Source: Accumulibacter sp.
GTDB taxonomy: Bacteria; Pseudomonadota; Gammaproteobacteria; Burkholderiales; Rhodocyclaceae
Length of the DNA stretch: 42,429 nt
Assembly (NCBI GenBank): GCA_024235715.1
Contig: JACKLW010000021.1
Span: 1 to 42,429 of the forward strand
Direction: 5' to 3'
Part shown: positions 12,126 through 31,543 of the stretch, piece by piece
Numbering within the stretch: position 1 is the stretch's first letter
Layout: each line of letters opens with the position of its first letter
Position numbers and translations under genes: made by a program
The notes under the pieces: model-generated
The model's database searches: none
What the model saw: only the letters and a program-made list of their open reading frames with translations
Told to the model about the DNA's origin: nothing

Positions 12126-12572
12126 ATGAGCATCGTCGCCAACAAGAAGGCTTTTCATGATTATTTCATAGAAGAGAAAATCGAGGCGGGCGTGGCGCTG
12201 GAAGGCTGGGAAGTGAAGGCGATCCGTGCTGGCCGGGCGAGCATCAAGGAGGCTTATGTCCTGGTCCGCAATGGCGAAGTCTTCCTGTTCGGCATGCACA
12301 TCACGCCGCTGATGGCGGCATCGACGCATGTCCGACCCGACCCGGTGCGCACCCGCAAGCTGTTGCTGCACGCCAGGCAGATCAGCAAGCTGATTGGCCA
12401 GGTGGAACGTGCCGGTTTCACGCTGGTGCCGCTTGACCTGCATTTCCAGCGCGGCCGCATCAAGGTCGAGATCGGCCTGGCAAAAGGCAAGAAGCAGTTC
12501 GACAAGCGCGAAGCCGACAAGGATCGCGACTGGGTGCGCGAGAAGGCGCGGCTGATGCGCGCCAAGGTCTAG
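12126..12572 (+). CDS. smpB: SsrA-binding protein SmpB
   Basis: A 148-aa SmpB, the tmRNA partner in trans-translation that rescues stalled ribosomes. Characteristic blocks are [40 protein letters not shown], the [15 protein letters not shown] segment and the basic C-terminal tail [13 protein letters not shown]...KDRDW that becomes helical in the ribosome. ATG 12126 is chosen (MSIVANKK) because GAGAAAAGG precedes it; a longer frame from 12063 would start inside the promoter. The tmRNA gene itself was not seen in the flanks. Confidence 0.98.
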
Positions 12573-12613
12573 GCGGCGTCACCGCGCGCCGGGCTTGACG
12601 GCAGGTTCCGGCG

Positions 12614-13366
12614 TCAGCTGAAGTGGCGCAGGGAGCGTTGCTGCCTTTGCTCCGTATCCGCCGCATCGTTCAGCCGCTGGCGGACGAAAGTGATATGTGC
12701 CTGTGCGGCGAGCCGGGCGGCTACGGGCTGGCGGCTGCGGATCGCATTGTGGATCGCGCGGTGCTGCGCCATCAACTGGCGGCCGGTTTCCGGACTCACC
12801 GCGATTTCGCGGAGGTTGCGTCGCACGTGTTCGTGCAGCAGGCGCAGAACACTGCCCACCAGATGGCCGAAGAGCACGTTGTGGGCAGATTCGGCGATGG
12901 TCAGATGAAAAGCGACGTCGGCAGCGACCTGCGCGTTGCGATCATCGAGCGCATAGGCGGCGTCAAGCCTGGCATAGGCTTTCTCCAGGCGCTCCAGGTC
13001 GCTGTCGGTCGCCCGCTGCGCGGCGAGTTCGGCTGCCGACGCCTCGAGCAGGTAGCGGAACTCGATCACGTCATCCTGCAGGAAGGGGTGCTGATCGATC
13101 AACTGCTGCCAGGGATCGGCGAAGCTGGCTTCCAGGCGGTCGGTGACGTAGGTGCCCCCGCCATGGCGGCTGACCAGCAGGTCACGGGAAACGAGCTTCT
13201 TGATCGCCTCGCGCAATGACGGGCGCGAAACGCCGAGTTCGATTGCCAGTTCGCGTTCGGCAGGAAGGCGGTCACCAGGCTTGAGGGAGCCCTCGAGGAT
13301 GCGCGCCTCGAGCTGGTGGGCGATGGCGTCGGGGATGCGCGGGAGTTTCAGTTTGGCATAATTCAT
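12614..13366 (-). CDS. FadR/GntR-family regulator, LldR-type
   Basis: A 250-aa GntR regulator of the FadR subfamily. The N-terminal winged HTH (about 10-75) contains LKPGDRLPAERELAIELGV and SRPSLREAIKKL. The C-terminal all-helical FCD domain (about 95-225) retains metal-ligand-type residues: EFRYLLEASAAE, the His in DVAFHLTIAES, the His in AQHRAIHNAI and a late His in AQAHITFV. It is divergent from lutA-lutC-lutB, and identical TGGTCTTACCA palindromes lie in front of both transcription units. It is most likely the lactate-responsive repressor of the lut operon and of itself (LldR/LutR role inferred from context). ATG 13366 is the start. Confidence 0.9.
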   Translation of the reverse strand: MNYAKLKLPRIPDAIAHQLEARILEGSLKPGDRLPAERELAIELGVSRPSLREAIKKLVSRDLLVSRHGGGTYVTDRLEASFADPWQQLIDQHPFLQDDVIEFRYLLEASAAELAAQRATDSDLERLEKAYARLDAAYALDDRNAQVAADVAFHLTIAESAHNVLFGHLVGSVLRLLHEHVRRNLREIAVSPETGRQLMAQHRAIHNAIRSRQPVAARLAAQAHITFVRQRLNDAADTEQRQQRSLRHFS

Positions 13367-25966: not shown

Positions 25967-27538
25967 GTGAGATACGGAGGGACCTTTCGGTCGTTGCGAG
26001 GTTGGAAGATGGAAGCAAAGCTGGTTTCTGGCCCGGTTACTCGTTCCCCAGGACGATGGAATTCCACTGGCGGTCGCGCACTGTGCCGTTCGCCGGCCCG
26101 GTTCTTGTTCGGTCTGCTGATGGTGCTGCTGGGGATGCCTGGGATTGCGGGGTTTCCAGTACCGTGGGGAACGGCCAGCGCCGCGCCGGTAATGGTGCTC
26201 AGCGTTCAGGACGCCATCGGCCCGGCCAGTGCCGATTACATCGTGCGCAGCCTGCTGCGCGCGCGGGAGGATGGTGCGCCGCTGGTCGTCCTGCGCATCG
26301 ATACCCCGGGCGGACTGGACAGCGCCATGCGCCAGATAGTCCAGGCGATTCTCGCGTCCCCCGTGCCGGTAGTCACCTACGTCAGCCCGCAGGGTGCGCG
26401 TGCGGCGAGCGCCGGAACCTATATCCTCTATGCCAGCCACCTGGCGGCGATGTCGCCGGCGACCACCCTGGGCGCTGCGACGCCGGTATCGATCGGCCTG
26501 CCGGGGGCAGCGCCGGGCCGCCCGGAGTCGCCGGCCGCGGCACCGGCGCCGGCTGCGGCACCGGCGTCGGAAACCGAGCCGGCTGCCGCTCCCGTGCCTG
26601 CAGCCAAGCCTACCGCGGCGTCGGGTGACACGATGAAAGCCAAGCAGATCAATGACGCCGCGGCTTTCATCCGCGGATTGGCGCAGCAGCACGGTCGCAA
26701 CGCTGAGTGGGCCGAGCGCGCGGTGCGCGAGGCGGTGACGCTGACCGCTTCCGAAGCCCTGCGAGAGAACGTGATCGACGTCGTGGCCAGCGACGTGCCG
26801 GACCTGCTGAGCCAGATCGACGGACGCAGCGTGCAGATGCAGGGCGGCAAGCTGACGCTGGCCACGCGCGGCCTGGCGACGCAGGAAGTGCTGCCCGATG
26901 CCCGCCACCGGTTGCTGTCGGTGATCGCCAACCCGAGCTTTGCGCTGATCCTGATGATGATCGGCGTCTATGGCCTGATCTTCGAGTTCTCGTCGCCAGG
27001 TTTCGGTGTGCCCGGTACGGTGGGGGCGATCTGCCTGCTGCTGGCGATGTTCGCGTTGCAGATGCTGCCGGTCAACTACGCCGGCCTGGCGCTGATCGTG
27101 CTCGGTATCGGACTTATGGCCGCGGAGTTGCTGACGCCGACCTTCGGCGTGCTCGGCGTTGGCGGTGTGGCGGCCTTCATTGCCGGCGGCCTGCTGCTCT
27201 TCGATCGTGACGTGCCGGGCATGGGCGTACCGCTGCCGTTGCTCTTCGGGCTGGCCGCCAGCTCGGCGGCGCTGGTCCTGCTCGGTGGCGGCATGGCGCT
27301 GCGCGCGCGGCGCGCACCGGTGGTCAGCGGTCGCGAGGAGATGATCGGCGCCGGCGCTGAAATCGAATTGATCGATGGCGACATGATCTGGGCGCAGGTT
27401 CGCGGCGAGCGCTGGCGCGTACGCGCTGCCGGGCCGTTGCGCCCCGGGCAGCGTGTGCGGGTCTGCGGCATCGACGGCCTGACCCTCGAGGTGCGGGCAA
27501 GCGACGAGTTTTCGTCAGCAAAAGGAGAGACACAATGA
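25967..27538 (+). CDS. NfeD-family membrane serine protease (ClpP-like)
   Basis: A long-form NfeD protein of up to 523 aa. After a signal/anchor segment ([11 protein letters not shown], possible cut at ASA-AP) comes a ClpP-class protease domain: [19 protein letters not shown], the nucleophile region [15 protein letters not shown], and [16 protein letters not shown] with the likely general-base Lys. An Ala/Pro-rich insert (about 185-220) interrupts this domain. Four to five transmembrane helices follow (about 325-460) and then the C-terminal NfeD OB-fold (about 465-515). The start is unclear: the frame opens at 25967 and ATG 26009 is an alternative. It overlaps the slipin gene by ATGA, the classic STOPP pair in which NfeD protease cleaves its partner stomatin. 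Confidence 0.9.
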
Positions 27539-28329
27539 TCTTCGATCTGAACCTGGGGCTGGGCACCATCCTGGTGCCGATACTGCTGATCCTCGTCTTC
27601 GCCTCGCTGCGCATCCTGCGCGAGTACGAGCGCGGCGTGGTGTTCCAGCTCGGCCGTTTCTGGAAGGTCAAGGGACCAGGGCTGGTGATCGTCATTCCCG
27701 GCATCCAGCAGATGGTGCGCGTCGACCTGCGGGTGGTGACCATGGACGTCCAGCCGCAGGACGTGATCTCGCGCGACAACGTCTCGGTCAAGGTAAACGC
27801 CGTCGTCTTCTTCCGTGTCGTCGACCCGCAGAAAGCGATCATTCAGGTCGAGGAGTTCCTGATGGCCACCTCGCAACTTGCGCAGACGACGCTGCGCGTC
27901 GTTCTCGGCAAGCACGAACTCGACGAGATGCTCGCCGAGCGCGAGCGGCTGAACATCGACGTGCAGAAGATCCTCGACGCGCAGACCGACGCCTGGGGCG
28001 TCAAGGTCACCAATGTCGAGATCAAGCATATCGACCTCAACGAGTCGATGATCCGGGCAATTGCCCGCCAGGCCGAGGCCGAGCGCGAGCGGCGCGCCAA
28101 GGTGATCCACGCCGAAGGCGAAAAACAGGCGGCGGCTGCGCTGCTCGAGGCGGCGACGACCCTGGCGCAGCGCCCCGAGGCGATGCAGCTGCGTTATCTG
28201 CAGACCATGACGCAGGTTGCCGGTGACCGCGCCACGACCGTCGTGCTGCCCCTGCCGCTCGACGTGCTCGCTGCCCTGGCACCGAAGGCCCCGCCAGCGG
28301 GTGGTGGCGTCGCCGACTCAGGCGCGTGA
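27535..28329 (+). CDS. Slipin / stomatin-like SPFH protein
   Basis: A 264-aa slipin. One N-terminal hydrophobic hairpin ([16 protein letters not shown]) anchors it, followed by the SPFH domain ([51 protein letters not shown]) and a charged coiled-coil tail with [20 protein letters not shown]. These proteins oligomerise into membrane rings and organise microdomains. The start ATG 27535 overlaps the nfeD stop, and the C-terminus is expected to be the NfeD cleavage target. Confidence 0.94.
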
Positions 28330-28374
28330 TCCGGCCGAGCGCCGGACGTGCGCGCCTCAGGGCGCGGGCGTTTT
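28330..28374 (+). terminator. Two adjacent hairpins ending the nfeD-slipin operon
   Basis: Directly after the slipin stop, TCCGGC (28330-28335) pairs with GCCGGA (28341-28346). A second stem, CGCGCC (28351-28356) with GGCGCG (28361-28366), is followed 4 nt later by TTTT (28371-28374). The second stem overlaps the 3' end of the convergent hydrolase gene. Confidence 0.4.
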
Positions 28375-29307
28375 GCGCTCCGACGAGGAGCGCTCGCTGC
28401 CGGCCAGGAGGAAGTCGATCGCCTGCCGCCACCAGGCGTCGTCGAGGCGAGCAAACCAGTCGTTGTGTTCGGCACCGTCGATTACCGCCAAGCGCTTCGG
28501 TTCGGTGAGCGCCGCGAAGAGCGCCCGGCCGAACTGCGGCGGGACGATGCTGTCCCTGGCGGCGATGACGACCAGCACCGGGTGTCCGAAAGACGCCAGG
28601 TGGGCGACGCTGTCGTAGCGGTCGCGCAGCAGCCACTGCACGGGCAACAGCGGGTAATGGTGCGCGGCGACGCTCGCGAGCCGGTCCCATGGCGTGATCA
28701 GCAGCAGGCCGGCGATCAGCTCGCGTCGTGCTGCGCTGGCTGCCGCCGCCACGCCGGCGCCCAGCGATTCGCCGATGATCAGCAGCGGTCCGCCGTACAT
28801 GCGGTGCGCCAGCAGAAGGGTCTGATCGGCATCGGCGACCAGGCTTTTCTCGCCCACTTCGCCGGGGCGCGGGCCGTAAGCCGGATACTCGGCGAGGATC
28901 ACCCGCAGGCCATGGCGAGCGAGCACGTCGACGTAGAAGCGGCGGTGGCCGGCATGGCCGGCATTGCCGTGAAAGATGATCGCCGTGGCCCGCGCCTGGC
29001 CGTCGGCTTCGGCCAGCAGGCCGCGGAAATCAGGCGCCGTTGGCCAGGGTGCGAGCCCGCCGGAGGCGGTCTCCATCTCGGCAACGCTGGCCGGTTCAGG
29101 GAAGTAGAGCAGTTTGTCCTGGAACATGCTGACCCCGGCCAGTGCGATCAGACAGACGAGGAGCGCGATGCGCAGGGCCGCTCGGGCGGCAGCGGTGCTG
29201 GCGCGGCTGCGGCTGGTCGGACCGGCACGCGGCGGCGACGAAGTCGCCAGCGCGTGCTCATTTCTTTCCGACAAGGCGAGGGGCCTCGAAGAGCGAGCTG
29301 ATTTCAA
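28357..29307 (-). CDS. Membrane-anchored alpha/beta hydrolase (BEM46/YfhR-like)
   Basis: An alpha/beta-hydrolase-fold protein. One transmembrane helix (LRIALLVCLIALAGVSMF) precedes DKLLYFPEP, the usual start of the BEM46/YfhR group. Core motifs are the oxyanion loop FHGNAGHAGHRRFYV, the nucleophile elbow GESLGAG, the acid-site strand PVLVVIAARDSIVPP and the late His in GAEHNDWF. The substrate is unknown (ester or peptide). The open frame begins at 29307, inside clpX; TTG 29274, which overlaps the clpX stop, is a more likely start with GAGG about 9 nt upstream. Overlap with the ClpX-like gene implies coupled translation. Confidence 0.85.
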   Translation of the reverse strand: MKSARSSRPLALSERNEHALATSSPPRAGPTSRSRASTAAARAALRIALLVCLIALAGVSMFQDKLLYFPEPASVAEMETASGGLAPWPTAPDFRGLLAEADGQARATAIIFHGNAGHAGHRRFYVDVLARHGLRVILAEYPAYGPRPGEVGEKSLVADADQTLLLAHRMYGGPLLIIGESLGAGVAAAASAARRELIAGLLLITPWDRLASVAAHHYPLLPVQWLLRDRYDSVAHLASFGHPVLVVIAARDSIVPPQFGRALFAALTEPKRLAVIDGAEHNDWFARLDDAWWRQAIDFLLAGSERSSSERKTPAP

Positions 29308-30259
29308 CTCTGGCGATCTCCGGGTGGTCGGGTACGACGTAGAGAATCGGCGTGATCAGTTCCTCGAAGATGCCGCGCAGGCTGCGTGCGCCGGTCTTGT
29401 ACTCGATGGCGATTTCGGCAATCTGCTCGAAGACCTTCGGGCCGATACGCAGGTCGACGCCTTCGCCGCGAAATATTTCGATGTACTGTCGATAGATCGA
29501 GTTCTTCGGCACGCTCATGATGCGTACCAGCATTGCCTTGCTCAATGCGTGCAGGTTGGCGATCACCGGCAGGCGACCGGTGAACTCGGGAATCAGGCCG
29601 AACTCGAAGAGGTCGGTCGGCTTCACCCGCTTGTTCAGGCGATCGAGGATATTCTGGTTGTCGTCGGCCGAGGTGGCGATGAAGCCGAAGCCGTGGGTCT
29701 TGGCCATGATGTTCTCGATACCGACAAAGGCGCCGCCGCAGATGAACAGGATGTTGCTGGTGTCGATGTAGTGATCGTCCCTGAGCTTGACCGGCGAGCC
29801 TTCCATGATCTTGAGCAGGGCATGTTGCACGCTCTCGCCAGAAATCGCTCCCGACTGTGTATGGTTGGCCTTCAGCTTGTCGATTTCATCGATGAAGATG
29901 ATGCCGTGCTGGGCGTTTTCGATCTTGCCGTCAGCCTTGTCGACCAGCCTCTGCAGAACGGCTTCGATTTCCTCGTTGACGTACTTGGTTTGTGCCAGTG
30001 ACGTTGCATCGGCGGTCACGAAGGGGACTTTCAGCATCCGCGACAGGGTATCGCAGAGCAGCGTCTTGCCGGTGCCGGAAGGACCGACCAGCAGTACGTT
30101 GCTCTTGGCTATCGTCCCCCTGTCGCTGGCGAAGGTGGCGATCTTCCGGTAGTGCGAGTACACGGCAACGGCCACGACCTTCTTGGCCTCTTCCTGGCCG
30201 ATGACGTATTGATCGAGATACTTGACGATGGCACTGGGTGTGGTTTCTCTGGCTAGCAC
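29258..30259 (-). CDS. ClpX-like AAA+ ATPase lacking the zinc-binding domain
   Basis: A 333-aa protein matching the AAA+ module of ClpX, but about 90 aa shorter. Intact parts are Walker A GPSGTGKT (59-66), Walker B IIFIDEID, the arginine finger in IPEFTGRLP (Arg229) and sensor 2 GARSLR (290-295). Missing or altered: the N-terminal C4 zinc-binding domain (upstream frame stops at about 30304 with no cysteines); pore loop 1 is KYVN (93-95 region) instead of GYVG; the RKH loop is deleted; the ClpP-contact IGF loop reads GFGF. The start is GTG 30259. It is therefore a paralogue of the housekeeping ClpX, not its replacement. It may remodel proteins without ClpP, or use another partner such as the co-encoded hydrolase (inference). 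Confidence 0.85.
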   Translation of the reverse strand: MLARETTPSAIVKYLDQYVIGQEEAKKVVAVAVYSHYRKIATFASDRGTIAKSNVLLVGPSGTGKTLLCDTLSRMLKVPFVTADATSLAQTKYVNEEIEAVLQRLVDKADGKIENAQHGIIFIDEIDKLKANHTQSGAISGESVQHALLKIMEGSPVKLRDDHYIDTSNILFICGGAFVGIENIMAKTHGFGFIATSADDNQNILDRLNKRVKPTDLFEFGLIPEFTGRLPVIANLHALSKAMLVRIMSVPKNSIYRQYIEIFRGEGVDLRIGPKVFEQIAEIAIEYKTGARSLRGIFEELITPILYVVPDHPEIARVEISSLFEAPRLVGKK

Positions 30260-30349
30260 AGGGGTAATCCCGGAATCAAAGGATGGTTGCGGCAGGCGCT
30301 CATCTTATTCCGAAACCGCCGCCTGTGCCGGGCGGCCATGCCGCAGCGC

Positions 30350-31543
30350 TCAGGCGTGTCGGCGGCCGCGGATCAGGGCCAGGTACGACAAGGGCGCCAG
30401 GGCGGTGCAGATGGCGACGCCTGCCGCGAGCGCGCCGCCGCCCCCTGAAAGTGCATGCCCGACGGCGATGCCGACCAGCGCGGCGAGGGTCATCTGCACG
30501 AAACCCATCAGCGCCGAAGCCGACCCGGCCATCGCCGGATAGGGCGCCAGTGCCCTGGCAATCGCGTTTGGCATGACCAGGCCGGTGGCCACGGTACAGA
30601 AGAACATCGGTCCGAGAATCGCGGCAATGCTGTTTACGCCCGCGACTTCCAGCGCCGCCATGCACAGGCCGGCGATGGCGCCGAGCCAGGCGCCGAACGC
30701 CAGCAGGCTGTCGCCACCGAAACGCCTGACGAGTTTTCCGGAAGCGACGGAGCCGAGCAGGTAGCCGGCGACGACCAGGCCGAAACTCATGCCAAAGACC
30801 TCCGGCGTCAGCCCGTGCCTTTCGCTGAGAACGAACGAGGAGGCAGAGATGAAGGCAAACAGCGCGCTGTACGAAAACGAGAAGGTGAGCACGTAGCCGA
30901 GGTAGCGGCGGTCGCCCAGCAGCAGGCGGAAGTTGGCGGCCACCTGGCGCGGATGCGTCGCTCCCGGATGGCGATGAATGTTGCTTTCGCCGAGCAGGCG
31001 AGTGACGGCGATGAGCTGGGCAGTGGAAACGAGCAGCAGAATGACAAAATTGGACTGCCAGCCGAAGAGCACCGTCAGGAAACCGCCGAGGGTCGGTCCG
31101 AAGAGCGGCGCTATGGCCATCGCGCCGCCCATGTAGGCGATGATGCGTGCCGACTCGGTTGCGCCCCAGACGTCGCGCACGACGGCACGGCCGAGAACCG
31201 GGCCGGCGCAGGCGCCGATCGCCTGCACGAAGCGTGCGGCGATCAGCATCTCGATACTTTGTGCCAGGATGCAGCCGATCGTCGCCAGGCAGTAGATCGC
31301 CAGTCCGCCGAGCATCAGCGGCCGGCGGCCGAAGCGATCGGAGAGGGGGCCGTAGAACAGCTGGCCAACGGCGAAACCGGCGAGAAAGACCGACAGCGTC
31401 AGCTGCACGCCGGCTGCATCGCTGGCAAACACCCGCGCCAGGGTGGGCAGCGCCGGCAGGTAGAGGTCGGTAGACAGCGGGCCGAGGGCGACCAGCGTCG
31501 TCAGCAGTACCGCCAGGCCGAAGGAAGGTGGCGGCGCTGTCAT
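30350..31543 (-). CDS. Bcr/CflA family multidrug efflux MFS transporter
   Basis: A 397-aa major facilitator with 12 predicted helices. ATG 31543 (MTAPPPSFGLAVLL) is the start; longer frames enter the next gene. Signature blocks are GPLSTDLYLPALPTLA in helix 1, the A-motif GPLSDRFGRRPLML between helices 2 and 3, and RFVQAIGACAGPVLGRAVVRD in helix 4, all characteristic of Bcr/CflA drug:H+ antiporters (bicyclomycin, chloramphenicol, sulfonamides in characterised members). The substrate here is unknown. It lies 22 nt behind the DUF455 gene on the same strand. Confidence 0.92.
   Translation of the reverse strand: MTAPPPSFGLAVLLTTLVALGPLSTDLYLPALPTLARVFASDAAGVQLTLSVFLAGFAVGQLFYGPLSDRFGRRPLMLGGLAIYCLATIGCILAQSIEMLIAARFVQAIGACAGPVLGRAVVRDVWGATESARIIAYMGGAMAIAPLFGPTLGGFLTVLFGWQSNFVILLLVSTAQLIAVTRLLGESNIHRHPGATHPRQVAANFRLLLGDRRYLGYVLTFSFSYSALFAFISASSFVLSERHGLTPEVFGMSFGLVVAGYLLGSVASGKLVRRFGGDSLLAFGAWLGAIAGLCMAALEVAGVNSIAAILGPMFFCTVATGLVMPNAIARALAPYPAMAGSASALMGFVQMTLAALVGIAVGHALSGGGGALAAGVAICTALAPLSYLALIRGRRHA

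Follow-up and report, generated by a model that had tools for sequence, protein, structure and literature searches.

A short ClpX paralogue of Accumulibacter and its relatives, without zinc-binding domain and RKH motif, as a probable second unfoldase

In a contig of Accumulibacter sp. (GenBank assembly GCA_024235715.1, contig JACKLW010000021.1, positions 1 to 42,429 of the forward strand; this whole stretch of 42,429 nucleotides is hereafter called the window), the reverse strand encodes a 333-amino-acid (aa) paralogue of ClpX, which retains the AAA+ motor but has neither the four-cysteine (C4) zinc-binding domain nor the RKH motif, and whose pore and docking loops are rewritten. Its homologues form a single clade, are under purifying selection and coexist with ClpX and ClpP in related bacteria. 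Because it is kept there alongside normal ClpX, the paralogue probably serves as a second unfoldase with a different aim. The best explanation, which we hold to be about evenly balanced between right and wrong, is a natural ClpX-deltaN with rewired substrate loops, whose docking loop most likely still engages ClpP.

Results

A complete ClpX-type gene without the zinc-binding domain

The gene and its motifs, all on the reverse strand, are as follows (residue numbers are those of the 333-aa protein).

29258..30259, reverse strand: short paralogue of ClpX (333 aa) with GTG start, stop codon included
30062..30085, reverse strand: Walker A motif GPSGTGKT (aa 59-66), pattern in 82/82 homologues
29975..29986, reverse strand: pore-1 loop KYVN (aa 92-95), aligned with ClpX GYVG
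29885..29899, reverse strand: Walker B motif IFIDE (aa 121-125), pattern in 81/82 homologues
29765..29797, reverse strand: shortened RKH-loop segment (aa 155-165), 11 residues from EG to DT versus 21 in canonical ClpX
29681..29689, reverse strand: docking tripeptide FGF (aa 191-193), aligned with ClpX IGF
29567..29578, reverse strand: arginine-finger motif GRLP (aa 228-231), pattern in 82/82 homologues
29375..29392, reverse strand: sensor-2 motif GARSLR (aa 290-295), pattern in 81/82 homologues
29288..29296, reverse strand: SLF motif near the C-terminus (aa 322-324), characteristic of the paralogues

The original prediction, made from the letters of the window, had placed a ClpX paralogue with intact ATPase motifs at this locus, and both points were borne out: the open reading frame (ORF) is complete and constrained across homologues, and the Walker A, Walker B, arginine-finger and sensor-2 patterns are kept at the counts listed above. 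The protein scored 366.4 bits with the ClpX model NF003745 (cut-off 359 bits), 332.3 bits with the clpX model TIGR00382, below its cut-off of 370.75 bits, and 179.4 bits with TIGR00390, the model of the related AAA+ protease motor HslU, far below 362.45 bits. Since one NCBIfam ClpX model accepts the paralogue, annotation may conceal the subfamily as ordinary ClpX. ClpX chains were the nearest solved structures (top E 1.2e-84), and the ClpX alignment opens at ClpX residue 67, which indicates that the zinc-binding domain is missing, as had been predicted. The upstream gene ends 90 bases before the GTG start, a gap too small to hold a domain some 60 residues long, so that there is no upstream room for a lost zinc-binding domain. 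An in-frame C4 motif upstream was found in none of the 82 homologues, to which the short form is common; a frameshift or an isolated truncation was therefore rejected.

Recurrent rewriting of the substrate and docking loops

The loops were compared between 56 paralogues and 80 canonical ClpX, and loci from the order were then added to give 82 distinct paralogues, the partial copy L119 being excluded (G, C, L, f and g numbers are our handles for genomes, contigs, loci, families and genera). With a profile built from the 56 paralogues, each of these scored at least 520 bits and canonical ClpX at most 377, although the matches of the 56 hold by construction.

The RKH motif was found within the loop in 0/82 paralogues versus 70/80 canonical ClpX, the single RKH among the paralogues (L152) sitting in the C-terminal tail. 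The segment from EG to DT, invariably 21 residues in the canonical proteins (80/80), has 10-11 residues in 73/82 paralogues by pattern; counted by eye, two of the nine misses have 11 and the other seven, all of family f13, have 17. The predicted deletion of the RKH loop thus stands for all 82 homologues, as an absent motif in a shortened segment. The pore-1 loop reads [KREQD]-[YF]-[VA]-[NGS] in 81/82 paralogues by pattern (L181 has RFVG) and GYVG or GYIG in all 72 readable canonical ClpX. Its first residue is K, R, E, Q or D in the paralogues, which accordingly do not have the GYVG-type loop of ClpX, while the pore aromatic Y/F is kept in 82/82 (81 by pattern, L181 by eye). The KYVN loop that had been claimed is present in the 333-aa protein and the alteration is clade-wide, but the clade's motif is looser than those four letters. 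Most canonical ClpX have 3 residues more in the pore-2 stretch than the 333-aa protein.

In the docking loop, the tripeptide [FY]-G-[FY] was found in 82/82 paralogues, 77 by pattern (FGF 58, YGF 15, FGY 3, YGY 1) and five by eye (FGF or YGF), compared with IGF (59), MGF (15), LGF (3), VGF (1) and IGY (1) among the 79 of 80 canonical ClpX that could be read. This conservation indicates that the loop is constrained. The distance from GGAF to GLIPE is 42 residues in 77/77 readable paralogues and 44-46 in 76/77 readable canonical proteins. The IGF loop had been predicted to be changed, reading GFGF; it is indeed altered, but the aligned tripeptide is FGF and the loop, about 3 residues shorter, is rewritten rather than lost. 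Near the C-terminus, S[LM]F occurs in 82/82 paralogues and is missing from the canonical consensus. The recurrence of the same loop changes in 82 distinct homologues indicates that they did not arise by chance.

Taken part by part, the paralogue shares with canonical ClpX the AAA+ core, Walker A and B, arginine finger, sensor 2, pore aromatic and docking G-[FY], and differs from it in lacking the C4 zinc-binding domain and the RKH motif and in having shorter pore-2 and docking loops, a non-glycine first pore-1 residue, an aromatic first docking residue, the SLF motif and a location away from clpP.

A single clade under purifying selection

A quick IQ-TREE analysis covered 41 paralogues together with 38 canonical ClpX and a single outgroup row from the own genome, which we called HslU-like without a family-model scan. 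The paralogues grouped as a single clade (SH-aLRT 100), whose stem measures 1.8 changes per column. Together with the 82 homologues, this supports the view that the loss of the zinc-binding domain and the changed pore loop, for which clade-wide sharing had been put forward as the check, are clade-wide. Because the root fork is open and the outgroup row is very long, the point at which the clade joins canonical ClpX is unsettled. The canonical ClpX of a UBA704 record (L016, named Accumulibacter) clustered with two genus copies (support 89). Identity of the paralogue to the genus's canonical ClpX is 46-49%.

A second tree included 61 of the 82 paralogues, with the genus thinned and L181 omitted. 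Families f13, f22, f15, f6 and f24 each formed one clade, and the window's family f1 did not; an approximately unbiased (AU) test, chosen after inspection of the tree, rejected the f1 copies as a single clade (p 0.019), and with it strictly vertical descent. This makes some transfer or hidden loss likely in the history of these sequences.

To quantify selection, omega (dN/dS) was calculated from 171 pairs in 19 genomes (G020 was omitted, and the own genome, G000, has no clpX for comparison). The median omega was 0.109 for the paralogue (maximum 0.219), 0.043 for ClpX and 0.049 for ClpP, and the paralogue's nonsynonymous divergence (dN) was 1.87 times that of ClpX; purifying selection acts on the paralogue.

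Distribution within one order

The paralogue is carried by 27/28 genomes of the genus, and 26 of these copies are near full-length with 81-100% identity to the window copy. The copy in G003 consists of pieces interrupted by runs of N, and a pseudogene was rejected there on that ground. No copy was found in G019, a genus genome that is 99% complete. G025 holds two copies (C285 and C344; L099 and L119), one of them partial, which may reflect mixed strains, as its contamination is given as 7. The paralogues of L012 and L013, from records named Accumulibacter, are 77 and 74% identical to the window's, and in the tree of paralogues they cluster with genus g52.

Further out, matches at E <= 1e-92 were found in 67/249 genomes and 20/68 genera of the family, where canonical ClpX of the genus reaches 6.2e-87 at best. 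The paralogue was also found in 36/399 genomes of the order (10 family codes, the own family included) and in 3/398 genomes of a phylum sample, all of the same order and with the own genome among them. Such limits would miss remoter relatives that score like canonical ClpX. A sample of another phylum gave 0/297 matches in a search without a known positive, so that the empty answer shows nothing. In two genomes the paralogue lies in a much longer open frame, 870 aa in G057 (L174) and 891 aa in G279 (C11), which is either an N-terminal fusion or merely an open upstream frame.

Canonical ClpX and ClpP in the carriers

Canonical ClpX was found in 26/28 genus genomes (all but G000 and G004) and ClpP in 25/28 (all but G000, G004 and G017), and a second, canonical-type match is present in both the L012 and the L013 genome. 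The expectation that the canonical clpX lies elsewhere thus holds for the genus, but in the own assembly neither clpX nor clpP was found. Contig C23 of that assembly opens with bases that match 12543-13014 of the clpP-clpX region of G005, and from the gene order of G005 the start of C23 may be read as tig, the neighbour of clpP-clpX; clpP and clpX of the own genome are therefore probably in an assembly gap, and their true loss is unlikely. G004 likewise has neither gene, and no similar contig break was seen there.

Outside the genus, 62 of 86 carriers were tested, 19 of the 24 omitted being less than 90% complete (the others were G218, G237, G369, G444 and G503). A ClpP match was found in 61/62, the exception being G230, which is 94% complete. 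Most of these carriers have a single ClpP, that of G058 being in three pieces on three contigs. A second match was strong in G131 (C30) and G182 (C44) and weaker in G137, G165 and G481. A second ClpP dedicated to the paralogue was rejected, as most carriers tested show only one.

Gene neighbourhood, putative promoter and search for a mobile origin

The elements flanking the paralogue are listed below; neighbouring genes were called with a codon-usage script and named from Pfam.

28357..29307, reverse strand: alpha/beta hydrolase ORF, the downstream neighbour, which overlaps the end of the paralogue and whose true start may be later
30350..31540, reverse strand: major facilitator superfamily (MFS) transporter, the upstream neighbour on the same strand
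30302..30307, reverse strand: -10-like element TAAGAT, 42 bases from the start codon

Across 19 genus loci, the alpha/beta hydrolase follows the paralogue in 17, and at most six genes away lie gcvP in 13 and the MFS transporter in 12. This gene order is kept within the genus only, and naming a client from the neighbourhood was rejected for that reason. A Band 7 (SPFH) gene, the second gene downstream of the paralogue in the window (25967-28329, forward strand), stands beside NfeD; in L163 and L164 a Band 7 gene points away from the paralogue on its upstream side, and in L165, L166 and L013 it does so with one small called gene in between. This proximity is possibly due to chance or possibly to a membrane quality-control link.

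The -10-like element, often found in TTTCGGnATAAGAT, possibly represents the paralogue's own putative promoter. The pattern TAA[GC]AT, which was picked after viewing the sequences, occurred at most 150 bases upstream in 21/25 genus loci, themselves closely related, with 0.39 expected from first-order Markov shuffles, a frequency that suggests an own promoter; outside the genus it occurred in 3/30 loci (0.70 expected). No LexA or sigma-32 pattern was found among the 57 upstream stretches scanned.

A mobile or phage origin was rejected, as no match reached 60% identity in the records that gave matches, 68 from plasmids and 70 from phages. Four viral loci had 33-45% identity; in three, the frame is 423-428 aa long and has a ClpX-like N-terminus. 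A PHROGs match to phrog_4339 (304 bits, function unknown) indicates that there are phage proteins related to the ClpX core. PADLOC returned nothing beyond weak AAA+ matches, the best at 26.7 bits.

Discussion

The paralogue would most likely form an ATP-driven hexamer, which would draw polypeptides through its pore by the conserved Tyr/Phe of the pore loop and act beside canonical ClpXP, not in its place. From the anatomy of the loops we infer altered clients, and the docking loop with its fixed [FY]-G-[FY] would most likely still engage ClpP of the cell, perhaps less strongly than that of ClpX or in a more conditional way. Background from the literature is cited here from excerpts of PubMed Central (PMC) papers. 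In E. coli ClpX-deltaN, the IGF loops carry ClpP docking, I268, F270 and V274 of ClpX pack in ClpP clefts, and altered IGF-loop length reduces ClpP affinity (PMC7112951).

Several points weigh against ClpP docking. The first residue of the tripeptide is always aromatic in the paralogues, their loop is about 3 residues shorter than the canonical one, and the position of V274 holds S, T, A or G in 75/77 paralogues and V, L or I in 74/79 canonical ClpX. No clpP lies near the paralogue in the loci drawn, the clpP of G005 clustered with none of the genes there, and the assembly of the own genome contains no clpP. To our knowledge ClpP is near-universal in such bacteria, which makes its co-occurrence with the paralogue weak evidence.

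The same loop changes and the distance from clpP favour a remodeller independent of ClpP, which would unfold or dismantle specific complexes and whose docking loop would meet another partner or serve the ring itself. That ClpX can work by partial unfolding of a client is exemplified by mitochondrial ClpX acting on ALAS (PMC7077987). Nevertheless, a tripeptide kept without exception would be unexpected if nothing docked there, and nearly all carriers tested have a ClpP. We therefore lean towards a ClpP-docking unfoldase and regard the independent remodeller as a serious but somewhat less probable explanation; the earlier suggestion that the protein perhaps has no ClpP may hold, the rewritten loop speaking for it and the kept tripeptide and the ClpP of the carriers against it. 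A more specific proposal, which we hold only tentatively, is that this clade-wide derivative, so far found in one order of Pseudomonadota, has turned into an AAA+ machine in its own right, working with a non-ClpP partner on clients of its own, the shortened [FY]-G-[FY] loop, usually followed by Ile, fitting a different ring and SLF adding a contact.

Mixed rings, in which the paralogue would co-assemble with canonical ClpX and tune ClpXP through subunits without zinc-binding domain and RKH, are improbable: by sequence the core is the same, and the two proteins coexist in most genomes of the genus and in those of L012 and L013, but the low identity and the long stem indicate that the interfaces between them have probably diverged. 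A decaying, functionless clpX duplicate or truncation, to which the missing N-domain, a dN some 1.9 times the ClpX value and the absence from G019 might point, is highly improbable, being contradicted by the open frame and motifs of 82 homologues, the low omega, the lack of upstream room for a zinc-binding domain, and the distribution.

Returning to the second unfoldase that probably still docks on ClpP as our preferred explanation, its closest described counterpart is in Myxococcus xanthus, which has three ClpX (PMC11423568). ClpX3 (MXAN_2743) is 43.54% identical to E. coli ClpX; deletion of its gene weakens growth at 36 °C, ClpX3 being required at high temperature, and the protein aggregated (PMC11423568). 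Like the paralogue, ClpX3 is an extra ClpX without N-domain and RKH motif encoded apart from clpP, but it belongs to another phylum (PMC11423568). An extra ClpX of this build is thus already known, and the paralogue may be taken as a further example. Engineered E. coli ClpX-deltaN is likewise a core without zinc-binding domain, but it is artificial and, unlike the paralogue, retains the RKH, pore-1 and IGF loops of ClpX (PMC7112951). The RKH loop is described as unique to ClpX-family enzymes; a mutant with AAA in place of RKH failed to support the degradation of an ssrA substrate, and its ATP hydrolysis was about 5-fold faster (PMC7112951). Among Creative Commons (CC)-licensed PMC papers, none joining Rhodocyclaceae and ClpX was found, Accumulibacter and ClpX met in one soybean metagenome only, as far as its excerpt goes, and clpX2 in the excerpt of PMC12923157 is a primer name and not a second gene.

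The clade amounts to a natural test of which ClpX parts are required, in which the motor, the pore aromatic and the docking tripeptide have been kept and the zinc-binding domain and RKH removed. If the paralogue docks on ClpP, these bacteria would have two ClpX-type entrances of differing selectivity to one ClpP; if it does not, it would be a separate remodelling machine. Either outcome would probe the real requirements of the docking loop.
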